Translations under genes and position numbers: made by a program
Notes under the pieces: generated by a model
The model's database searches: none
The model's input: the letters and a program-made list of their open reading frames with translations, nothing else
What the model was told of the DNA's origin: nothing
Shown here: piece after piece, positions 38,394 through 52,999 of the stretch
Layout of the letters: the number at the start of each line of letters is the position of its first letter
How positions within the stretch are numbered: position 1 is the stretch's first letter
Source of the DNA: Bacillota bacterium
Lineage (GTDB): Bacteria > Bacillota > Clostridia > Lachnospirales > Bianqueaceae
Length of the DNA: 64,000 nt
Direction: 5' to 3'
Assembly (NCBI GenBank): GCA_017442535.1
Contig: JAFRZL010000015.1
Span: 1-64,000, forward strand

Positions 38394-40100
38394 ATGCTGC
38401 TGCATTTAAGAGTGCAGAATTTTGCACTGATCGACGATGTTGAACTGGATCTCGAAGAGGGTCTGAATATCCTGACGGGCGAGACCGGCGCCGGTAAAAG
38501 CCTTATTATGGGGGCAGTGAATCTGGCGCTTGGAGCGCGCGTCAGCCGCGAGCTGCTGCGCGACGCCGAACAGCCTGCTCAGGTGGATCTCTTATTTGAT
38601 GTTACCGGTCTGCCTGCTGAGGAAGCGCTTCGCCGGGAGGAGCTGCTTGACGGTGATAGCGGAGAAGTCCTGCTTTCCCGACGCATTGCGCCGAATGGCC
38701 GCGCCGTAAACCGGCTGAATGATCAGATCGTGACGGCATCCGTGCTGCAGCGTGCGGCCGCCATCCTGATCGATGTGCATGGCCAGCATGAACACCAGTC
38801 CCTGCTGGACGCTTCCCGCCATATCGATCTGCTGGATCGTTTTGACGACCGGACCAGGGCCTGCAAAGACAAATTGACAGGACTGCTGGCACAGCGCCGC
38901 GCCGCATCGGCCGAGCTTGAACGCTGGCAGAGCCAGGCCGAGGACAAGGACCGCCTGCTCTCGCTGATGGAGTTCGAGGCGCAGGAGATCGACGAGGCGG
39001 AGCTGCGCGAGGGTGAGGAAGAAGAATTGCTCGCTTTCACACGCATGGCCCGCTCATCCGTCCGTCTGCAGGAAACCTGTCAGCTCGCCTATGCCGCGCT
39101 CCGGGGACAGGAGGATTATGGCGGCGGAGCATTGGACATGCTTGGCGAAGCACTGCTGCAGCTGCAGCGGATCGAGGATCTGGATGCGGCCCATCTTTCC
39201 GATATGGTGAATGAACTATCCGACGCGGTCAGTCTGGCCGAGGACGCATCGGTTTCGATCAGGCGCTATTCCGAATCGCTCGAATACGACCCCGAGGCAC
39301 TCGCAGAGGCCGAGAACCGTCTGGAACTGATTCGGCATCTTAAGAGCAAATTCGGAAACGGTTATGAAGCGATCATGAAATACCGGCGGGATCTGGAGGA
39401 GTCGATCCGCAAAATCACGCATATCAACGACACACTGGATCAGCTGGAAGCAGAGCTTGCCCGGATACGACGCGGGATGGAAGAGATCTGCGCCGAGCTT
39501 ACCGCGATCCGTCAGACCGTGGCGGCTGATATTTCAGCCAGGATCACGCAGGTGCTTACGACTCTGCAATTCCAGGATCCCGAATTTGCCGTACAGGTAA
39601 CGCCGCGCGCAGAGATCGGCCCCAAGGGCGCTGACAGTGTGCAGTTCATGATCCGCACCAACGTGGGAGATGTCCTCAGACCTCTGGACAAGATCGCTTC
39701 AGGCGGCGAAATCAGCCGCATCATGCTCGCGATCAAGACCGTCCTGGCGGATCGCGACGAGATCCCGACCCTGATCTTCGACGAAATCGATGCGGGGATC
39801 AGCGGCCGTACCGCCCAGCGTGTCGCGGAAAAACTCGCGATGATCGCGCGTTATCATCAAATCATTTGCATCACACATCTGCCGCAGATCGCGGCTATGG
39901 CAGACTGCCATTTGTACATCGAGAAAACGGTGCATAACGGAAGAGCCCGTACGGAGGTCACACGCCTTACGGAGGAGGCATCCGTTCAGGAGCTCGGCCG
40001 CATGTTGGGCGGAACCGAACTGACCGAATCGGCCATCCTGAATGCACAGGAGATCAAGCGGCTCGCCGCCGAATGGAAGAGAAAGGAGCTTAATCAGTGA
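38394..40100 (+). CDS. recN: DNA repair protein RecN
   Basis: SMC-like ATPase of double-strand break repair. It has 568 residues: N-terminal half of the ATPase with Walker A LTGETGAGKSLIMGAVNLAL and HGQHEHQSLLDASRHIDLLD, a central coiled coil (about 155-370), and the C-terminal half with signature KIASGGEISRIMLAIK and Walker B LIFDEIDAGISGRTAQ, then ITHLPQIAAMADCHLYIEK. The ATG is 3 bases after the argR stop. In spore-formers spoIVB and spo0A follow; here the next gene is an alpha/beta hydrolase whose GTG overlaps the recN stop. Confidence 0.96.
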   Translation: MLLHLRVQNFALIDDVELDLEEGLNILTGETGAGKSLIMGAVNLALGARVSRELLRDAEQPAQVDLLFDVTGLPAEEALRREELLDGDSGEVLLSRRIAPNGRAVNRLNDQIVTASVLQRAAAILIDVHGQHEHQSLLDASRHIDLLDRFDDRTRACKDKLTGLLAQRRAASAELERWQSQAEDKDRLLSLMEFEAQEIDEAELREGEEEELLAFTRMARSSVRLQETCQLAYAALRGQEDYGGGALDMLGEALLQLQRIEDLDAAHLSDMVNELSDAVSLAEDASVSIRRYSESLEYDPEALAEAENRLELIRHLKSKFGNGYEAIMKYRRDLEESIRKITHINDTLDQLEAELARIRRGMEEICAELTAIRQTVAADISARITQVLTTLQFQDPEFAVQVTPRAEIGPKGADSVQFMIRTNVGDVLRPLDKIASGGEISRIMLAIKTVLADRDEIPTLIFDEIDAGISGRTAQRVAEKLAMIARYHQIICITHLPQIAAMADCHLYIEKTVHNGRARTEVTRLTEEASVQELGRMLGGTELTESAILNAQEIKRLAAEWKRKELNQ

Positions 40101-41107
40101 ATACGGAACGCTTTGAAGACAAAATCCGCTGGAGCAGAGTAGAGAGTTATGAAGAGCATTATTCTCCGTACTGTGATCAGGTCTATTACACATCCTCTCA
40201 GGACCCCGCGCTGCAGCTCGCCATGCGGGTTGAGAAGCCCGCTGTACCCGGCCCGATCCTCGTGATGACCCATGGCTGGCACCAGACCATCGTGCCCTTC
40301 GAACCATGGGAGGAACCCGGTGATTCTCCCTATCTGGTAATCCAGGTGGATATGCGCGGCCGTTCTTTTTCCATGGGGCAGGCAGACTGCAACGGGTATG
40401 AGCTGATGGATATTTATGATGCCGTTCAGGCGGCCCGTTCCCGCTACGCGGACTATATCAGCGATCCGGAACTGGTCTATTTTGAAGCCGGCAGCGGCGG
40501 CGGAGGCAACGCCTTCGCACTCGCGGGCAAGTTCCCGGACTTTTTCGCGGCAGTGAACGCGCTCTACGGCATCAGCGATTATGCGGAGTGGTATCGCTGC
40601 GATTACGTGGGCGAATTCCGGGATGAACTGGATGTGTGGGTCGGCAAAGATCCTGATCTGGATCCCATGGCTTACGCTGCACGTTCCGGTCTGACAACGG
40701 TTCGCAATCTTCTCAGCCCGATCTTTATCACACACGGGGCTCTTGATCCGCGCGTACCCGTTTACCATTCCCGGATGTTTGTCGAAGCTGCCAAGGCCGC
40801 CGGCAAAACCGATCTAATCACGTATTATGAGATGGAAGGCGTCGGCATGCCCAAGCATATCAGCGGGGCTACGCAGGATCAGCTGGATACCATGCGGACG
40901 CTTGCAGACCGAAATCTGATGCTGCACTCGTCACCGATCGAACTGCCCCGTAAAGGTTCTCTCATTGTTGCGGGCTACGTCGTCACCAAGCATTTCAAGG
41001 TCTTCCTGGACTCGCTGGACAAGGTCGCCAGACTGAATTATGATCTGGATGAGGATTCCTTCAGCCTGGAGTGCAGCGTCCCCTGCGAATACCGTATCGA
41101 GAAGTAA
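40097..41107 (+). CDS. Alpha/beta hydrolase (acetylxylan esterase / prolyl oligopeptidase-like)
   Basis: Cytoplasmic serine hydrolase of 336 residues; no signal peptide. After an N-terminal lead, LVMTHGWHQT carries the oxyanion-hole His-Gly; the nucleophile Ser is probably in FEAGSGGGGNAFALAGKFP, the acid in FITHGALDPRVPV and the His near GMPKHISGA. The layout resembles cephalosporin-C deacetylase and acyl esterases, but the elbow is rich in Gly and the substrate cannot be named. It begins with GTG overlapping the recN stop, with AAAGGAG 8 bases upstream. It may be transcribed with recN, but a functional tie is unlikely. Confidence 0.75.
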   Translation: MNTERFEDKIRWSRVESYEEHYSPYCDQVYYTSSQDPALQLAMRVEKPAVPGPILVMTHGWHQTIVPFEPWEEPGDSPYLVIQVDMRGRSFSMGQADCNGYELMDIYDAVQAARSRYADYISDPELVYFEAGSGGGGNAFALAGKFPDFFAAVNALYGISDYAEWYRCDYVGEFRDELDVWVGKDPDLDPMAYAARSGLTTVRNLLSPIFITHGALDPRVPVYHSRMFVEAAKAAGKTDLITYYEMEGVGMPKHISGATQDQLDTMRTLADRNLMLHSSPIELPRKGSLIVAGYVVTKHFKVFLDSLDKVARLNYDLDEDSFSLECSVPCEYRIEK

Positions 41108-41145
41108 AAAGGCTGCGCAAGCGGTCCGAAGGGAGGTGAGGATGG

Positions 41146-42348
41146 ATGACTTTAGAGGAAGAAGCCAGGCTTTCATATTACCGGAAAGTGACGGAACTTG
41201 ACGCTCAGCGTCATATGGAACTGGTCAAACATGTCGAGACCCAGCGCCTCTGCATCCGCAAGGAGCTTTCGGTTTATTCGCTTGGAGTTTATCAGTTTCT
41301 GCAGAAGCATCACATCGCTCACACACCCGAGATCCTGGAGCTGGTGGAGGATGACGGTCGACTGATCGTGATCGAGGAGTATCTGAGTGGTATCAATCTG
41401 CAGGATATTCTGAACCATGAAGGCTGCCTGCCCTACGAGCGGGCTCTTGATATTACGATACGCCTGTGCCGGATCCTTCGGGATTTCCACGCCTGCCAGC
41501 CGCCTATCATCAACCGCGATATCAAGCCTTCCAATCTGGTAATATCCTCTTCCGGCGAGGTGCAGCTCGTGGATCTTAATGCCGCGAAATGGCTTAATAC
41601 GGAGGAAAAACGCGATACCGAACTGATCGGTACACAAGGTTATGCCGCTCCTGAGCAGTATGGGTTCGCTCCGTCCGATATCCGCACGGACATCTATGCG
41701 GTGGGCGTGCTGCTGAACAGGCTGCTTACCGGCAAGCTTCCCAGGGAAGAAGTCCCGGACGGGCCCGTGGGAGCCGTGATCCTGCGCTGCACCCAGATCG
41801 ATCCTGCTATGCGCTACTCAAACACGGACGAACTGATGACCGCGCTGGAAGTACTGATGCAAGAATACCGGATCCATCACGGCGGGCAGGGATCGGACGA
41901 ACAGCCGCAGAATATGACGGAATGGATGAACAGGCCCAAGCGGACCGGTGAGAAAACTTCCTTCGGCAGAAGCACGTTTGAGTCATCCAGGGATCCGGAT
42001 GGACCTCCGGCTTACTGCATGAGTTACCTGCCGCCCGGAATTCGCTCCGATAAATGGATCATCCGGATCATCTCCGCCGCCGTCTACATCTTCCTTATCG
42101 TGGTCTGCCTGGATATGCAGATCCAGAAGGAAGGTCAGGGCTACCTGACCGGCTGGCCGCTCTGGGTCTATCGTATCGCGGCTCTGCTGATCATTCTGCT
42201 GGAAACCGCTTTCTGGGGCAATTACAGAGGCATCCAGCACCGCATCGGTTTGTACCGCTTATCACCTGCCGCACGCTGGATCATCCGCATTCTGATCGGC
42301 ATCGGCATCCTGTTCGGAATGCTTTTACTGATTATGATCTTCTCATAG
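41146..42348 (+). CDS. Membrane-anchored Ser/Thr protein kinase with degenerate P-loop
   Basis: Hanks-type kinase of 400 residues. The catalytic loop is INRDIKPSNLVI (Arg124-Asp125, Lys127, Asn130), the metal site is VDLNAAK (Asp143 in place of DFG), and the activation segment is LIGTQGYAAPEQYGF. The Gly-rich ATP loop is missing: the equivalent region reads TELDAQRHMELVKH. The VAIK lysine is probably Lys39 in IRKEL. The C-terminus has three membrane segments (about 300-322, 341-360, 377-400), so the kinase faces the cytoplasm. GGGAGGTG precedes the ATG by 7 bases. It is followed by an HTH-like gene and a zinc-ribbon membrane protein, a pattern I recall from Clostridia. Confidence 0.85.
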   Translation: MTLEEEARLSYYRKVTELDAQRHMELVKHVETQRLCIRKELSVYSLGVYQFLQKHHIAHTPEILELVEDDGRLIVIEEYLSGINLQDILNHEGCLPYERALDITIRLCRILRDFHACQPPIINRDIKPSNLVISSSGEVQLVDLNAAKWLNTEEKRDTELIGTQGYAAPEQYGFAPSDIRTDIYAVGVLLNRLLTGKLPREEVPDGPVGAVILRCTQIDPAMRYSNTDELMTALEVLMQEYRIHHGGQGSDEQPQNMTEWMNRPKRTGEKTSFGRSTFESSRDPDGPPAYCMSYLPPGIRSDKWIIRIISAAVYIFLIVVCLDMQIQKEGQGYLTGWPLWVYRIAALLIILLETAFWGNYRGIQHRIGLYRLSPAARWIIRILIGIGILFGMLLLIMIFS

Positions 42349-42359
42349 GGGGTTAGGCC

Positions 42360-42812
42360 ATGAAGACCACGGACCAATTGAATCAGGCGCTTAGTCAGGG
42401 CAATCTGTCGGAATATTACGAACAGTTTGAGGACAAACTGGCCGACCCCGACAAGCCTTTTGCCGCTTATATGCGCAGGATTATCCGCTCCAAAGGCCTC
42501 CTGCAGCAAACCGTTTTTCTGAGGGCCGATATCCCCGAACGCTACGGCTACAAGCTGATCAGCGAGGAAAAGCATACGCGTCAGCGCGATGTGATCCTGC
42601 GTCTATGCCTGGCGGCGCATTGCTCGCTGACTGAGGTCAACCGTGCGCTGCAGCTATACTCTATGTCGCCGCTGTATCCGCGGATCCGCCGCGACGCCGC
42701 CTTTATCATTGCGTTTAACACAGGCCTTTACGAGATCGAGGCGGTGGAGGAGTTGCTCCGTGCGCATCAACTGGAGCCGCTCTACGCCTGCACTCCCGCG
42801 GACGATCTGTAA
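42360..42812 (+). CDS. Helix-rich protein resembling a diverged XRE/HTH regulator (kinase partner)
   Basis: Protein of 150 residues, 11 bases after the kinase gene. The middle section RSKGLLQQTVFLRADIPERY, followed by KLISEEKHTRQRDVILRLCL and AHCSLTEVNRALQLYSMSPLYPRIRRDAAFIIAFNTGL, has the helical order and spacing of XRE-type HTH proteins (compare ...GLSRSEVIRRSGLDRTYGYQI..GKKNPSRDKLLALALA..) but with changed recognition residues. I recall such proteins beside this type of kinase in Clostridia. It may be a substrate or output of the kinase. DNA binding is uncertain. Confidence 0.6.
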   Translation: MKTTDQLNQALSQGNLSEYYEQFEDKLADPDKPFAAYMRRIIRSKGLLQQTVFLRADIPERYGYKLISEEKHTRQRDVILRLCLAAHCSLTEVNRALQLYSMSPLYPRIRRDAAFIIAFNTGLYEIEAVEELLRAHQLEPLYACTPADDL

Positions 42813-42850
42813 TTCCCACCCCTGCGGTGGCAATAGCCCTCCCTTGGTTA

Positions 42851-42859
42851 TGATATAAT
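42851..42859 (+). promoter_or_regulatory. Extended -10 promoter before the zinc-ribbon membrane protein
   Basis: TGATATAAT (42851-42859) is an extended -10 element; no good -35 is seen. A small hairpin CCACC / GGTGG (42817-42830) sits between the previous stop and this promoter. Confidence 0.6.
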
Positions 42860-42894
42860 CTTTGCAAAAGAATCAACCAATGGAGGGATTTTTA

Positions 42895-43998
42895 ATGAGT
42901 AAAAAGAATAACGATATGAAAGTATGTCCCAATTGCGGGAGCGCGATCAGCAGCAAGGCCAAAACCTGCCCCAACTGCGGCACTAAATTCAGCGTCAAAA
43001 AGCCGTTTTTCCTGCGCCCGTGGTTTCTGATCCTGACAGCAGTGATCCTGGTGATCATCATCGTCGTACCAAAGGGCGGCAGCAGTGATGGCGGGGAGAG
43101 CAGCCGTGCTGAATCAAAATCTGCTCAGGAGAGCGGCAAGCAGAATACGAGCCGCGCCGAATCCTCAAAAAAAGAGGAATCATCCATCCCTGAAATCAAA
43201 GACGCCTATGTTGTCGGAGATGAACTGCTCGAGGGCGGCTTCCGCATCGTCTATGTCGCGAGCGGCCTCTACCAGACGGATAACGAATTCATGCAGCCCG
43301 CCGAAGGCAATCAGCACATTTTCCTGAAGTTTGCTTTTATCAATGAATCTAAAAATGACAAGAGCATCAGTTCCTTCAGCTTTGAGTGCTATGCAGACGG
43401 ATATGTACAGGAAGCGCACTATTTCGGCGACGAAGAGCTCTCCGCCTCGCTCTCGTCCGGCCGTCAGACCATGGGCATGCTGTTTTTTGAGGTCCCCAAG
43501 GATGCCAAGGAGATCGAAGTGGAGTATGAAAGCAATTTCTTCAGCGATAAAAAGATCCGCTTCCTCTATGAAGGCGAAAAGGATTCCGGTTTCCAGCTGA
43601 CACCGAACACCACCCGCACCGAAGGGGCTCTGAATCCGGGCGATACAGTCAGCACGTCCAACCTCAAGATCACATATCTTTCTTGCAGCGAGTACAAGAG
43701 TGACAACATGTTTATCCAGCCGCCCGAAGGTTATCATTTCTATCAGATAGAGCTTGAATTCGAGAATATCGGTTCTTCTGATCAGGTTGTCAGCGCCCTT
43801 GACTTTAACTGCTATGCGGACGGAACTGCCTGCGAACAAAGCTATCTCGCTGATAACGACCTTTCCGGCACCTTATCTGCCGGCCGCAAACTCAAAGGCA
43901 CCGTTACCTTTGCCATTCCGGACGGGGCCACCGTCGCCGAAGCCGAATTCGAAGAAAATATCTGGACCGGCAATCATATTGTTTTTACCATGCGCTAG
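42895..43998 (+). CDS. Zinc-ribbon membrane protein with two extracellular DUF4352-like domains
   Basis: Protein of 367 residues. A zinc ribbon lies at 10-30 (VCPNCGSAISS and TCPNCGTKF), a membrane segment at about 40-62, a Ser/Glu-rich linker (65-100), then two related domains of about 115 residues: FRIVYVASGLYQTDNEFMQP...FECYADG and LKITYLSCSEYKSDNMFIQP...FNCYADG. The duplication is clear from shared F/Y-x-CYADG and LSAGR-KLxG motifs. The fold recalls the DUF4352 beta-sandwich. The ATG at 42895 follows GGAGGG by 7 bases. It lies beside the kinase pair and may be a sensor or substrate of it. Confidence 0.75.
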   Translation: MSKKNNDMKVCPNCGSAISSKAKTCPNCGTKFSVKKPFFLRPWFLILTAVILVIIIVVPKGGSSDGGESSRAESKSAQESGKQNTSRAESSKKEESSIPEIKDAYVVGDELLEGGFRIVYVASGLYQTDNEFMQPAEGNQHIFLKFAFINESKNDKSISSFSFECYADGYVQEAHYFGDEELSASLSSGRQTMGMLFFEVPKDAKEIEVEYESNFFSDKKIRFLYEGEKDSGFQLTPNTTRTEGALNPGDTVSTSNLKITYLSCSEYKSDNMFIQPPEGYHFYQIELEFENIGSSDQVVSALDFNCYADGTACEQSYLADNDLSGTLSAGRKLKGTVTFAIPDGATVAEAEFEENIWTGNHIVFTMR

Positions 43999-44027
43999 TT
44001 GCATTGTCCATGAAATGATGGTATACT
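43999..44027 (+). promoter_or_regulatory. Promoter of the flavin-fold gene
   Basis: TTGCAT (43999-44004) and TATACT (44022-44027) are 17 bases apart, again with TGG before the -10. The -35 begins just after the previous stop codon. Confidence 0.8.
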
Positions 44028-44057
44028 ATAGCCATCCATTCATGAGGAGGAATCAAT

Positions 44058-44459
44058 ATGAAAGCTATTGAAAAGGTATATCAGTTCCTGGAAGACGCCG
44101 GCACTTACTACCTGGCCACCGTAGAAGGCGACCAGCCCCGCGTCCGTCCCTTTGGCACCATCCTGCTTTTTGAGGATAAACTTTACATCCAGACGGGTAA
44201 AATCAAACCCGTCTCGCATCAGCTCGCCGCTAATCCAAAAGCCGAGATCTGCGCCTTCAAAGATGGCTGCTGGCTCCGTCTCACCTGCGAATTGATCAAC
44301 GACGACCGCCGCGCCCCCAAAGCCGCAATGCTCGACAAAATGCCCAGCCTCAAAGCCATGTACAGCGCCGACGATAACAACACGCAGGTCCTCTACGTTC
44401 AAAACGCCACAGCTACTTTCAGCAGCTTTACCACTGCGCCTGAGGTCGTAGAGTTCTGA
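44058..44459 (+). CDS. Pyridoxamine 5'-phosphate oxidase family protein (FMN split barrel)
   Basis: Small flavin-binding type protein of 133 residues. Family pattern: VYQFLEDAGTYYLATVEGDQPRVRPFGTILLFEDKLY-like core (seen as AGTYYLATVEGDQPRVRPFG), YIQTGKIKPVSHQLAANPKAEIC and a final beta-strand region. Such proteins bind FMN or a related cofactor and often act as reductases of unknown substrate. AGGAGGAATCA precedes the ATG. It has its own promoter and is ended by a shared convergent terminator. Confidence 0.85.
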   Translation: MKAIEKVYQFLEDAGTYYLATVEGDQPRVRPFGTILLFEDKLYIQTGKIKPVSHQLAANPKAEICAFKDGCWLRLTCELINDDRRAPKAAMLDKMPSLKAMYSADDNNTQVLYVQNATATFSSFTTAPEVVEF

Positions 44460-44496
44460 TCGCCGTGAAGCACTTTCCGTGCTTCATGCTTCATTC

Positions 44497-44535
44497 AAAA
44501 AAGACATAGGGTAGATGAGGACCTATGTCTTTTTT
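44497..44535. terminator. Strong bidirectional terminator
   Basis: A perfect 14-bp stem AAAAAAGACATAGG (44497-44510) / CCTATGTCTTTTTT (44522-44535) with an 11-base loop serves both converging genes. The last codons of the minus-strand nuclease gene lie inside the right arm. A second hairpin GAAGCAC / GTGCTTC lies at about 44467-44485. Confidence 0.93.
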
Positions 44536-45227
44536 GTTGTGGAGCAGAGCTGAGCAACATGTTCGACCCAGGCGCGGAAACGTCGCTTGACCATTTCCAT
44601 ATCAAGCGGATCTTCACGGGTGATAAAGATTCTTTCTCCTTCGCTGATGCCCATTTCCTCCATTCTGGCGGCTTTCCATTCATTTGAACGGTTATATCCT
44701 TCCTCCGTCTTTCCCTGATGCTCCCACCAACACTCAAGCGCAAGCTCCATCGAAAAATCCGGCCTTATAATCGATCCGTCGAGCAGTCTAAGCGGCTTTT
44801 CGTAGCAAAACTGAATCCCTTCCGACATCAGAAAATCTGAAATCATTGCTTCGGATTTAGAGCGTACGAAATCCCCGTGCATCGTATAGATGTTATACCC
44901 GGGAGAGCGCTTGCGTGACGCAATCCATTTTGCTAAACTACGCCGGCGGTCTTGCCTTAGCTGCCTATGGATCTCCTGCCTGAGCATAAAATCGTTTGTC
45001 TTTAGCTTCTCCATCATCGGTGCAATCATTGACTCCAGGTGCTTAGCCTCATTCAAATCTGCCTTCATCTTCATTAACTCTTCACCACGCAGCGTCTGCC
45101 GGAGCAATTGGCCATGATCATAATACTGAAATTCTGCCTGAAGCCCAAAACGCCCTACATGCTCTCTGCGCAGCACACCCGATGTAATCATTCCCAGCCT
45201 ATTCACTAAAGCCATCAATTCATCCAT
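44523..45227 (-). CDS. PD-(D/E)XK-like nuclease family protein
   Basis: Protein of 234 residues. The N-terminal 100 residues are helical and basic; the C-terminal part has the layout of a PD-(D/E)XK nuclease: Glu126 in VRSKSEAMISDFLMSEGI, Asp157 in IIRPDFSMEL, Glu169-His170 in CWWEHQGK with Lys173, then a Tyr/Arg/Lys-rich helix EGYNRSNEWKAARMEEMGIS and IFITREDPLD. Catalytic geometry is inferred from spacing only. The stop codon overlaps the terminator. Upstream lie a promoter, an 18-bp perfect inverted repeat and a repeat array. The target is unknown; defence or housekeeping of repeats are both possible. Confidence 0.65.
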   Translation of the reverse strand: MDELMALVNRLGMITSGVLRREHVGRFGLQAEFQYYDHGQLLRQTLRGEELMKMKADLNEAKHLESMIAPMMEKLKTNDFMLRQEIHRQLRQDRRRSLAKWIASRKRSPGYNIYTMHGDFVRSKSEAMISDFLMSEGIQFCYEKPLRLLDGSIIRPDFSMELALECWWEHQGKTEEGYNRSNEWKAARMEEMGISEGERIFITREDPLDMEMVKRRFRAWVEHVAQLCSTTKKT

Positions 45228-45247
45228 ACAAGCACCTCCACAGAAAG

Positions 45248-45276
45248 ATCATATCACCTTTTTCTCTGGTTGGCAA
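45248..45276 (-). promoter_or_regulatory. Promoter of the nuclease-like gene
   Basis: On the minus strand TTGCCA (45276-45271) and TATGAT (45253-45248) are 17 bases apart. The long inverted repeat begins 1 base upstream of the -35. Confidence 0.7.
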
Positions 45277-45277
45277 A

Positions 45278-45320
45278 TTCCTGTTAGTACATAAATATAG
45301 GGTTTATGTACTAACAGGAA
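45278..45320. repeat. Perfect 18-bp inverted repeat upstream of the nuclease-like gene
   Basis: TTCCTGTTAGTACATAAA (45278-45295) and its exact complement (45303-45320) enclose a 7-base loop, TATAGGG. It abuts the -35 of the minus-strand promoter. No T-run follows on either strand, so an operator or recombination site is more likely than a terminator. Confidence 0.9.
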
Positions 45321-45340
45321 TAATAATCTCCAAATTACTT

Positions 45341-45522
45341 GAAAGTCTATGCCACCGCCATAGAGAATCACGGAAAGTCTATGCCACCGTCATAGAGAAT
45401 CGCGGAAAGTCTATGCCACCGCCATAGAGAATCGCCGAAAATCTATGCCACCGTCATAGAGAATCACCAAAAGTCTATGCCATCGTCATAGAGAATCACC
45501 AAAAGTCTATGCCACCGCTATG
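45341..45522. repeat. Tandem array 1 of 32-bp repeats
   Basis: Five full units and one partial, with exact period 32 (unit starts 45341, 45373, 45405, 45437, 45469, 45501). Each holds AAAGTCTATGCCACCG then (C/T)CATAGAGAATC. CTATG and CATAG form a short dyad around a 7-base middle. Units differ mainly at two or three positions. A related array lies at 52681-52936. Confidence 0.95.
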
Positions 45523-45587
45523 TGAATGCAGTATGCCTTCAAAGCAAGTCTATGAAAGAGCTGACTGCAAGCATGAACGCAAGCATC

Positions 45588-45625
45588 AAAAAACCTCTCG
45601 CGCCAAATCGACGCAAGAGGTTTTT
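45588..45625 (-). terminator. Terminator of the 6S RNA/tRNA-Ala unit
   Basis: AAACCTCTCGCG and CGCAAGAGGTTT form a long stem with a 9-base loop (one mismatch). On the minus strand the hairpin is followed by a run of six T (plus-strand A at 45588-45593). Confidence 0.85.
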
Positions 45626-45634
45626 GAATGTGAG

Positions 45635-45707
45635 TGGAGACGAAGGGATTCGAACCCTCGACCTCTCGGATGCGAACCGAACGCTCTCCCAGCTGAGCTA
45701 CGCCCCC
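45635..45707 (-). tRNA. tRNA-Ala (anticodon CGC)
   Basis: Full cloverleaf on the minus strand: acceptor GGGGGCG / CGTCTCC with the G3-U70 wobble pair that marks tRNA-Ala, D arm GCTC...GAGC, anticodon arm TTCGG-TTCGCAT-CCGAG (anticodon CGC, reads GCG), T arm GAGGG-TTCGAAT-CCCTT, discriminator A. CCA is not encoded. It lies about 28 bases after the 6S RNA. Confidence 0.95.
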
Positions 45708-45734
45708 GCACATGCCTGAAAAACAGGGCATAAA

Positions 45735-45927
45735 TCAACCCGAGATGCCGACGCCTGAAATTTGATCCCTAGCAATATGCTAGGTGGGTGTTCGCAGTAA
45801 CTACGCTGCCATCCCCTGCCTGTAAACAGGAATTAGCTTGGGGCCCGACATTGTAGGCTAGGCATATAAAACTCCCAATCTCAAGGTGTAGGTTCAAATA
45901 CACAAGCTATCGCACATCCCAGGATGC
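45735..45927 (-). ncRNA. ssrS: 6S RNA (RNA polymerase regulator)
   Basis: About 193 bases from a good promoter. The 5' part CCTGGGATGTGCGATAGC and the 3' part GGCGTCGGCATCTCGGG closely match the ends of known 6S RNA (E. coli CTGAGATGTTCGCAAGC and GGCGGCATCTCGGAG), and they pair in a 9-bp closing stem (45915-45923 with 45739-45747). The central part has TACTGCGAACACCCACC and the hairpin CCTAGCA-TAT-TGCTAGG where E. coli has CTGCGACGACACATTCACC and a hairpin. 6S RNA binds housekeeping RNA polymerase by mimicking an open promoter. The exact ends are estimated. Confidence 0.88.
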
Positions 45928-45933
45928 AAGCAT

Positions 45934-51037: not shown

Positions 51038-51835
51038 ATGAGTCCGAATCAGGAGTTTTATGAGGGGCTTGATCCGAAGGATGCCGTGGGGACGACGCTC
51101 AGTTTTTTGCGGACGTTTTCACCTCTTTACGCGGGCACGGTCGGCCTTGACGGCAGACCGCAGGTCAGACTCGCGGACTTTGCGTTTGAGAAGGAAGGAG
51201 CTTTCTATTTTCTCACGCTGAAGAGCAGCCGCTTCTACGCAGAGCTTTCAAAAACACCATATCTTCAGCTGTGTAACTGCGATCCGGAGGCGGGGACGGT
51301 TTTCCGACTCTCCGGTAAAGCATGTTTTACGGAAGATGAAGCCATCATTGAACGCGGCATTAAGGAACGGCCTGACATGTTGGAGAGAGCAGGCGGAGAG
51401 CGAAAAATGCTGATCGCTTTATTCCTGCTGGAGGCGCAGACTACGCTAGAAGCTGAGAAAGCTTCCGTACCAGAGATGAATCTGCGGCTGCCGGACCCGA
51501 ACGGCGTCCTGATCGGAATCACGATCAAAAAGAAGACTGAACTGAGGGACCGCCTGGTACGTGTTCTGGAGCGCCGCGAAAACGAACCTCCGGCGCTGGA
51601 TCCGGAGCTTGCCAGAGTCTACGACGGGGCTATATTTGTTTTTGCCGAGGCGGCCAAGGCTATCTGGCCCAGAATGGATATACGACCGATCGAACGCGCC
51701 GCTGTCTTTGAAACCTGGGATGAGCGTGAGAAATATACGGCTCTGGCTGCCACACTGATCGGTAATGCCGTGATCGACTCCCCGGAGGATATTACGTATT
51801 GGCTGAACCCCGATACGCTGAAAGGACTGCTATGA
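51038..51835 (+). CDS. Flavin split-barrel (PNPOx-like) protein with extra C-terminal domain
   Basis: Protein of 265 residues. The N-terminal 130 residues look like the FMN-binding split barrel: FSPLYAGTVGLDGRPQVRLADF, EGAFYFLTLKSSRFYAELSK and PYLQLCNCDPEAGTVFRLSGKA. The C-terminal 130 residues form a second, unrecognised domain with VYDGAIFVFAEAAKAIW and TWDEREKYTALAATLIGNAV. The start at 51038 follows GGGAGG by 7 bases (51035 by 4). Its end overlaps the next gene by 4 bases, so the two are coupled. Confidence 0.65.
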   Translation: MSPNQEFYEGLDPKDAVGTTLSFLRTFSPLYAGTVGLDGRPQVRLADFAFEKEGAFYFLTLKSSRFYAELSKTPYLQLCNCDPEAGTVFRLSGKACFTEDEAIIERGIKERPDMLERAGGERKMLIALFLLEAQTTLEAEKASVPEMNLRLPDPNGVLIGITIKKKTELRDRLVRVLERRENEPPALDPELARVYDGAIFVFAEAAKAIWPRMDIRPIERAAVFETWDEREKYTALAATLIGNAVIDSPEDITYWLNPDTLKGLL

Positions 51836-52635
51836 ATTCGTTAAGAGAACAGCTTTTCAGCCATGTGCGGAATGAATATGGCTGCGATATAGAGTTTCCC
51901 TGGCGCACATTGCCGGACGCGGCTGTTTTCCGCCATGCGGAGAATAAAAAATGGTACGGACTTGTGATGGAAGTCGGCCGCGATAAGCTCGGTCTGCCCG
52001 GCACCGATCCGGTCGATGTACTGAATATCAAAATCGAAGATTCGGTGCTTCGCGAGATGCAGCTGCGGCAGCCGGGATGTTTTCCAGGCTATCACATGAA
52101 TCATTTTCACTGGATGACGGTTATGCTGGACGGGACGGTCCCTTTCGCGGATATTTGTATGCTGCTGGATCGCAGCTACGAAGCAACGCTGCCCAAACGC
52201 CTGCAGGCAAAGGAGCGGCTGCCCAGGGAGTGGGTGATCCCATCCAATCCGCATTATTATGATGTGATTACTGCATTCCGCGAGCGTCAGGAGATCGAAT
52301 GGAAGCAGGGAAGAGGCATTCTGAAAGGCGACACAGTTTATCTGTATGTCGGTGCGCCTGTTTCTGCCATCCTGTATAAATGTCTGGTGACGGAGACAGG
52401 GATCCCCTACGACCGTCATCACGAAAAAATCACGATCAATGCTCTGATGCGGATCCGCTGCCTCAAGACATATCCGGCGGATCAATTTACTTTTGCCAGG
52501 CTTTACGAAGAATTCGATATCCATACGATCCGAGGGCCGCGGGGCATCCCGGACGATCTGAGCCTGGCGCTCTCAAGGGCCGGAGAAAAATACGTTATGG
52601 CATCATCCCGGGACGACTGTAAAGCCGATTCCTAA
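51832..52635 (+). CDS. MmcQ/YjbR-like protein fused to a PUA/EVE-like domain
   Basis: Protein of 267 residues. The first half is MmcQ/YjbR-like: YGCDIEFPWRTLPDAAVFRH, KKWYGLVMEVGRDKLGL, VDVLNIKIEDSVLRE and PGYHMNHFHWMTVMLDG. The second half has PSNPHYYDVITAFRERQEIE, WKQGRGILKGDTVYLYVGAP and VSAILYKCLVTETGIPYDRH, which has the look of EVE/ASCH-type domains of the PUA superfamily that bind modified bases. The ATG at 51832 overlaps the previous stop (ATGA); the upstream extension to 51799 lies within the previous gene. Base recognition is inference. Confidence 0.65.
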   Translation: MNSLREQLFSHVRNEYGCDIEFPWRTLPDAAVFRHAENKKWYGLVMEVGRDKLGLPGTDPVDVLNIKIEDSVLREMQLRQPGCFPGYHMNHFHWMTVMLDGTVPFADICMLLDRSYEATLPKRLQAKERLPREWVIPSNPHYYDVITAFRERQEIEWKQGRGILKGDTVYLYVGAPVSAILYKCLVTETGIPYDRHHEKITINALMRIRCLKTYPADQFTFARLYEEFDIHTIRGPRGIPDDLSLALSRAGEKYVMASSRDDCKADS

Positions 52636-52680: not shown

Positions 52681-52936
52681 AAAAGTCTATGCCACGTGCA
52701 TAGAGAAACGCCAATAGTCTATGCCACGGGCATAGAGAACCGCCAAAAGTCTATGCCAGTGGCATACAGAAATGCCGAAAGACTATGCCCGTGGCATAGA
52801 GAAATGCCAAAAGCCTATGCCACAGGCATAGAGAAACGCCAAAAGTCTATGCCACTGGCATAAAGAAATGCCGAAAGACTATGCCAGTGGCATAGAGAAA
52901 CGCCAAAAGTCTATGCCACGGGCATAGAGAACCACC
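52681..52936. repeat. Tandem array 2 of 32-bp palindromic repeats
   Basis: Eight full units, exact period 32, starts at 52681, 52713, 52745, 52777, 52809, 52841, 52873 and 52905. The unit is roughly RAAAGTCTATGCC-NNN-GGCATAGAGAAACGCC; CTATGCC and GGCATAG are a 7-bp dyad around a 3-base loop. Loop triplets read ACG, ACG, AGT, CGT, ACA, ACT, AGT, ACG; flanks are nearly constant. It lies before the terminator at 52971. An open frame through it is a by-product of the repeat. Confidence 0.97.
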
Positions 52937-52970: not shown

Positions 52971-52999
52971 AACCCACTGCCTTTGTCAGTGGGTTTTCT
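52971..52999 (+). terminator. Terminator after repeat array 2
   Basis: AACCCACTG (52971-52979) and CAGTGGGTT (52987-52995) form a perfect 9-bp stem with a 7-base loop and a T-run. The array would be part of the 3' untranslated RNA of the 51.0-52.6 kb operon. Confidence 0.88.

Follow-up and report, generated by a model that had tools for sequence, protein, structure and literature searches.

The two tandem arrays found in the window, a 64,000-nucleotide stretch of DNA, are members of a family of intergenic arrays that is spread over the whole genome. In its main type, a perfect 16-bp palindrome, CTATGCACGTGCATAG, and a 16-bp linker make up a 32-bp unit. The best explanation, to which we give about an even chance, is that the arrays are phased binding sites for a putative dimeric DNA-binding protein, acting on DNA and not on RNA, and with a structural role.

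Array 1 (45341–45522, forward strand) contains six CTATG-N7-CATAG dyads separated by 15-bp linkers at a period of 32. Its first dyad, CTATGCCACCGCCATAG, occupies 45347–45363 (no strand), and the later ones start at 45379, 45411, 45443, 45475, and 45507, the sixth being a degenerate unit that spans 45507–45522. Tandem Repeats Finder delimited this array at 45341–45518 (period 32, 5.6 copies, 91% matches, score 279). The frame AAAGTCTATGCC...CATAGAGAA described at period 32 by an earlier, sequence-only reading of this DNA is present, and so is the change it reported in the inner arm, GCC or GTC where the array 2 type has GGC. The same reading described the dyad as CTATG-N7-CATAG, which is indeed found, but the pairing runs one base further (TCTATG/CATAGA).

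Array 2 (52681–52931, forward strand; Tandem Repeats Finder: same limits, period 32, 7.8 copies, 84% matches, score 353) contains eight dyads of 17 bp with 15-bp linkers, again at a period of 32. Its first dyad, CTATGCCACGTGCATAG (52687–52703, no strand), is identical to CTATGCACGTGCATAG except for one inserted C, and this links the 17-bp and 16-bp types. The centres of array 2 occur in both orientations (CCACGGG/CCCGTGG and CCAGTGG/CCACTGG). An ORF encoding a YjbR domain (51799–52635, forward strand) ends 46 bp ahead of the array, and a terminator-like hairpin with a T run, read by eye, lies on its other side (52971–52999, forward strand). Array 1 was proposed to be the more uniform of the two, in agreement with a mean unit divergence of 10% versus 14% in array 2.

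Array 1 adjoins the gene of tRNA-Ala (CGC; 45634–45707, reverse strand) and lies beyond the intrinsic terminator of its transcript (45588–45627, reverse strand); 6S RNA is encoded upstream of the tRNA (45733–45928, reverse strand). At the orthologous tRNA-Ala/6S locus, both same-genus genomes lack an array. On the other side, an ORF on the reverse strand (44523–45227) has its start facing the array; it had no match in Pfam or NCBIfam, and several copies of distant relatives were found in both same-genus genomes. Between this ORF and array 1, at positions 45278–45320, two perfectly complementary arms of at least 16 bp (CCTGTTAGTACATAAA...TTTATGTACTAACAGG) flank a loop of 7 bases. Within 38394–45928, the 6S RNA and tRNA-Ala genes are on the opposite strand to recN, 5.6 kb off, while in the same-genus genome G002 (L077) the three genes are direct neighbors in one orientation; the difference is a small inversion or rearrangement.

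The source genome is a 2.25 Mb draft, 80% complete, which was covered by whole-genome searches and by reading selected stretches (contig ends, array surroundings, and 400 kb of interior). The CTATG-N7-CATAG pattern occurred 26 times genome-wide versus two times for a reversed control pattern, well in excess of chance, and 25 of these 26 dyads fell in four arrays: the two in the window, C7 (three dyads, one with the 16-bp form), and C19 (14 dyads). When array 2 was used as a DNA query against its own genome, eight further, more distant arrays were retrieved. The genome holds 109 exact copies of CTATGCACGTGCATAG, of which 108 were located, all but one inside arrays; the exception is a lone palindrome directly behind a terminator (L207:1992), which may be the seed of an array or what is left of one.

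In total, the family comprises about 16–21 arrays with approximately 186 units, four arrays being of the 17-bp type and about 12–17 of the 16-bp type. The number is given as a range because in some cases two contig ends hold the halves of a single array, as indicated by shared sequence (C22L/C5R, 67 bp; C25R/C33L, 65 bp; C17R/C26R, 53 bp) and, for C29L/C2R, by synteny. Seventeen contig ends lie in arrays of the 16-bp type, so that these arrays break short-read assemblies, and three arrays of this type are internal to contigs (C14, C22, and C41). Thus, the two arrays of the sequence-only reading are real, but the main family with its perfect 16-bp palindrome had been missed. The genome also contains other tandem families, mostly at contig ends, with units of 63 bp (L168, L208, and L210), 66 bp (L134; L175 and L205), 95 bp (L202), 39 bp (L078:8150–8284), and 435 bp (L144:1–987), and inverted repeats were seen within at least the 63-bp family.

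The 391 other genomes of the order that were searched, among them two of the same genus and 16 of the same family, contained neither an exact copy of CTATGCACGTGCATAG nor a tandem pair of the dyad. The 24-base core was absent from 40 relatives searched at up to two mismatches, 400 kb of G002 contained no 32-bp array, and neither the viral contigs, phages, and plasmids searched nor a literature search for the palindrome returned anything relevant. Matches to the tandem pattern in public genomes were unrelated repeats with other units, in metagenome-assembled genomes (MAGs) of Treponema, Tannerellaceae, and Prevotella relatives. Unrelated 21-bp tandem repeats on CATAGAGTTCTATG were observed in Treponema and Tannerellaceae MAGs, that is, in two phyla (L031–L034). 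Judging from the sequences compared, the family appears to be private to one species among those sampled.

Evidence for a bound sequence comes from what is conserved within the unit. In a set of 155 units with the 16-bp dyad, of which 107 are exact, palindrome divergence was 4.6% for comparisons within an array and 4.8% for those between arrays. These values could be flattered because units were gathered by their resemblance to the palindrome, but the 32-bp register shows that few were missed. The corresponding values for the linker, where fair constancy is limited to an AAA run and a GATC-like stretch, were 24.5% and 47.5%, and linker divergence exceeded palindrome divergence in all 18 arrays or array ends that were scored. 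For the 17-bp type, divergence between arrays was 2.6% in the arms, 31% in the centre, and 26% in the linker. Of the arm changes, 56 were one-sided and none was compensated, and therefore it is the sequence that has been kept, not the pairing. A core that stays nearly unchanged while the DNA between its copies drifts suggests that some component of the cell recognizes the palindrome; a palindrome fixed across unlinked arrays with drifting linkers is a sign of selection that is legible from one genome. The spacing from dyad to dyad was exactly 32 bp in 155 of 162 cases, for the 16-bp and 17-bp dyads alike. This period is about three helical turns, and the constant step weakly supports helical phasing, since tandem duplication would copy the period as well.

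The relationships among loci were analyzed with the same units. The sequence-only reading had proposed a dispersed unit that formed separate arrays, and permutation tests bear this out, as units group by locus: the separation between arrays 1 and 2 was reached by eight of 5000 label permutations and that among the four 17-bp-type arrays by none of 5000. In a tree of 145 units of 32 bases each, 45 changes of locus label were counted versus a mean of 119 with shuffled labels; neither array 1 nor array 2 was monophyletic, which is unsurprising for units of 32 bases. The closest relative of array 1 is C7, on another contig (7.5% divergence), and array 2 stands at 21%, so that a local segmental copy of array 2 can be dismissed.

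The arrays are intergenic and follow the ends of genes, in most cases with a terminator in between. Of the 19 stretches that separate a gene end from an array, 11 had a terminator called by script, and a few more looked terminator-like by eye. Among the seven arrays with both flanks sequenced, six lie between tandem genes, including array 1, one of whose flanking genes is a tRNA, one (C7) lies between convergent genes, and none is placed between divergent genes. The neighboring genes are functionally unrelated to one another (sulfatases, PTS enzyme I, TrkH, an S1-domain protein, MATE, MFS, and ECF transporters, and others), and none recurs among the arrays. The arrays had also been supposed to mark accessory regions flanking a possible island; this finds no support, since arrays of the family adjoin ordinary genes such as those of PTS enzyme I, TrkH, the S1-domain protein, and the ECF transporter, and array 1 itself adjoins tRNA-Ala and 6S RNA. 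In G002, the trkH orthologue and its convergent neighbor are separated by about 100 bp containing just one terminator, whereas the same pair in the source genome is found at contig ends running into arrays with matching linkers. The array therefore fills a site that is empty in the relative.

In the reading that we prefer, each palindrome would bind one dimeric, sequence-specific DNA-binding protein, the 32-bp step would align neighboring dimers along the same face of the helix, and the whole array would serve as a high-density loading or clustering site, with a role in chromosome organization, segregation, or division control rather than in gene regulation. We infer all three elements of this reading, namely protein binding, the relevance of phasing, and the structural role. 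The arrays of the window retain the half-sites CTATG/CATAG with a centre that is one base longer and variable; they are a diverged branch, which may bind differently or be decaying, and the loss of the conserved centre is odd for an essential site. A general tendency of this genome to repeat expansion, to which the other tandem families of 39, 63, 66, and 95 bp point, may also explain part of what is seen.

The nearest working parallel to such phased sites is the centromere of the F plasmid, parS/sopC, in which twelve repeats of 43 bp carry ten motifs of 16 bp (PMC6238139). Like sopC, for which the dimeric binder is known (ParB(F)/SopB), the arrays are made of tandem units with 16-bp inverted repeats, but the step is 32 bp and there are about 16–21 chromosomal arrays instead of one; no parA or parB was recognized by Pfam among the genes flanking the arrays, a few of which had no Pfam match. 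The consensus sites of ParB and Noc are also 16-bp palindromes, that of parS being TGTTTCACGTGAAACA (PMC7383237). This sequence shares a CACGTG centre and eight of 16 positions with CTATGCACGTGCATAG; as only four of the eight half-site positions match, which would occur by chance with a probability of 11%, we set this similarity aside as evidence and retain it as a lead only. To our knowledge, parS and Noc-binding sites (NBS) are scattered single sites and not tandem arrays. The arrays studied here could form a chromosome-wide centromere-like or nucleoid-organizing set, in which one protein, perhaps of the ParB/Noc kind, would load on many dispersed phased clusters that originated in one species and the 17-bp arrays would represent a second specificity splitting off, but in this specific form the proposal is rather unlikely.

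The main rival explanation is a self-spreading intergenic repeat, similar to REP or BIME elements, in which the palindrome would be the recognition site of a copying enzyme (transposase, recombinase, or nuclease) and would be kept because only intact copies spread, without any gain for the cell. REP, BIME, and REPIN elements are species-specific, dispersed intergenic palindromes that are partly clustered (PMC2817692, PMC3116915). The family shares with them its dispersal, intergenic location, and high copy number, and this explanation further agrees with its limitation to one species among those sampled, with the site occupied in its own lineage and empty in a relative, with the preference for the space past gene ends, as for REPs, and with the solitary palindrome just behind a terminator. 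However, the units differ from REP elements by the perfect 16-bp palindrome, the fixed 32-bp step, and the near absence of singletons, 107 of the 108 located exact copies lying within arrays. They consist of CTATGCACGTGCATAG and a variable linker, and no constant GTAG-like tetranucleotide, the REP foot, was found. The Y1 transposase of RAYTs (Y1_Tnp, PF01797) gave no match in the source genome, in which, at 80% completeness, the gene could be missed, and it was matched in the control genomes, including E. coli; REP elements with a RAYT were thus rejected. Moreover, the linkers have diverged by 48% between arrays, so that any spreading is not recent. We regard a self-spreading element as possible but doubtful.

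Neutral minisatellites are a less probable explanation, and on balance an improbable one. Folding of the palindromes in single-stranded DNA would lead to slippage in the weakly constrained space behind terminators, so that copy number would vary with neither a function nor an enzyme being involved. Bacterial minisatellites (VNTR) are likewise intergenic head-to-tail repeats of constant period and variable unit sequence, and the grouping of units by locus, the strong self-complementarity between units (z from −7.8 to −9.8 in four of five stretches), and the presence of further tandem families in the same genome are all consistent with such an origin. The centres and linkers of array 2 and C35R, which occur in both orientations, are what strand switching at inverted repeats predicts; in C35R (L198), the linkers of the last units are inverted relative to the other units, as a flip of the segment between palindromes would produce. 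Nevertheless, one unit is common to many unlinked loci, unlike in minisatellites, and its arrival at these loci remains unexplained by slippage. Half of the unit is also strongly conserved, and slippage of whole units would not hold one 16-bp half below 5% when the other half has diverged by 48% between loci. A CRISPR array was rejected as well, the linkers being homologous variants of one sequence and not unique, unrelated spacers.

Finally, transcription of the arrays in 3′ UTRs as hairpins for termination, stability, or regulation would fit their position past gene 3′ ends and the stable folds predicted for four of the five stretches tested, which out-fold shuffles as would any row of complementary palindromes, but such an RNA-level role is highly improbable because terminators precede many arrays and arm changes are never compensatory, and it is further at odds with the fold of array 1, which barely beats shuffles (z −1.7), and with the mixed orientation of arrays relative to the neighboring gene.

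If a protein binds the palindromes, the species would possess a dense, phased DNA platform of its own, built since its split from the sampled relatives, and the family would offer a tractable case for the origin of new chromosome-organizing or segregation sites. If the palindrome is instead the target of a spreading enzyme, the arrays would represent a REP-like element working without the known transposase.
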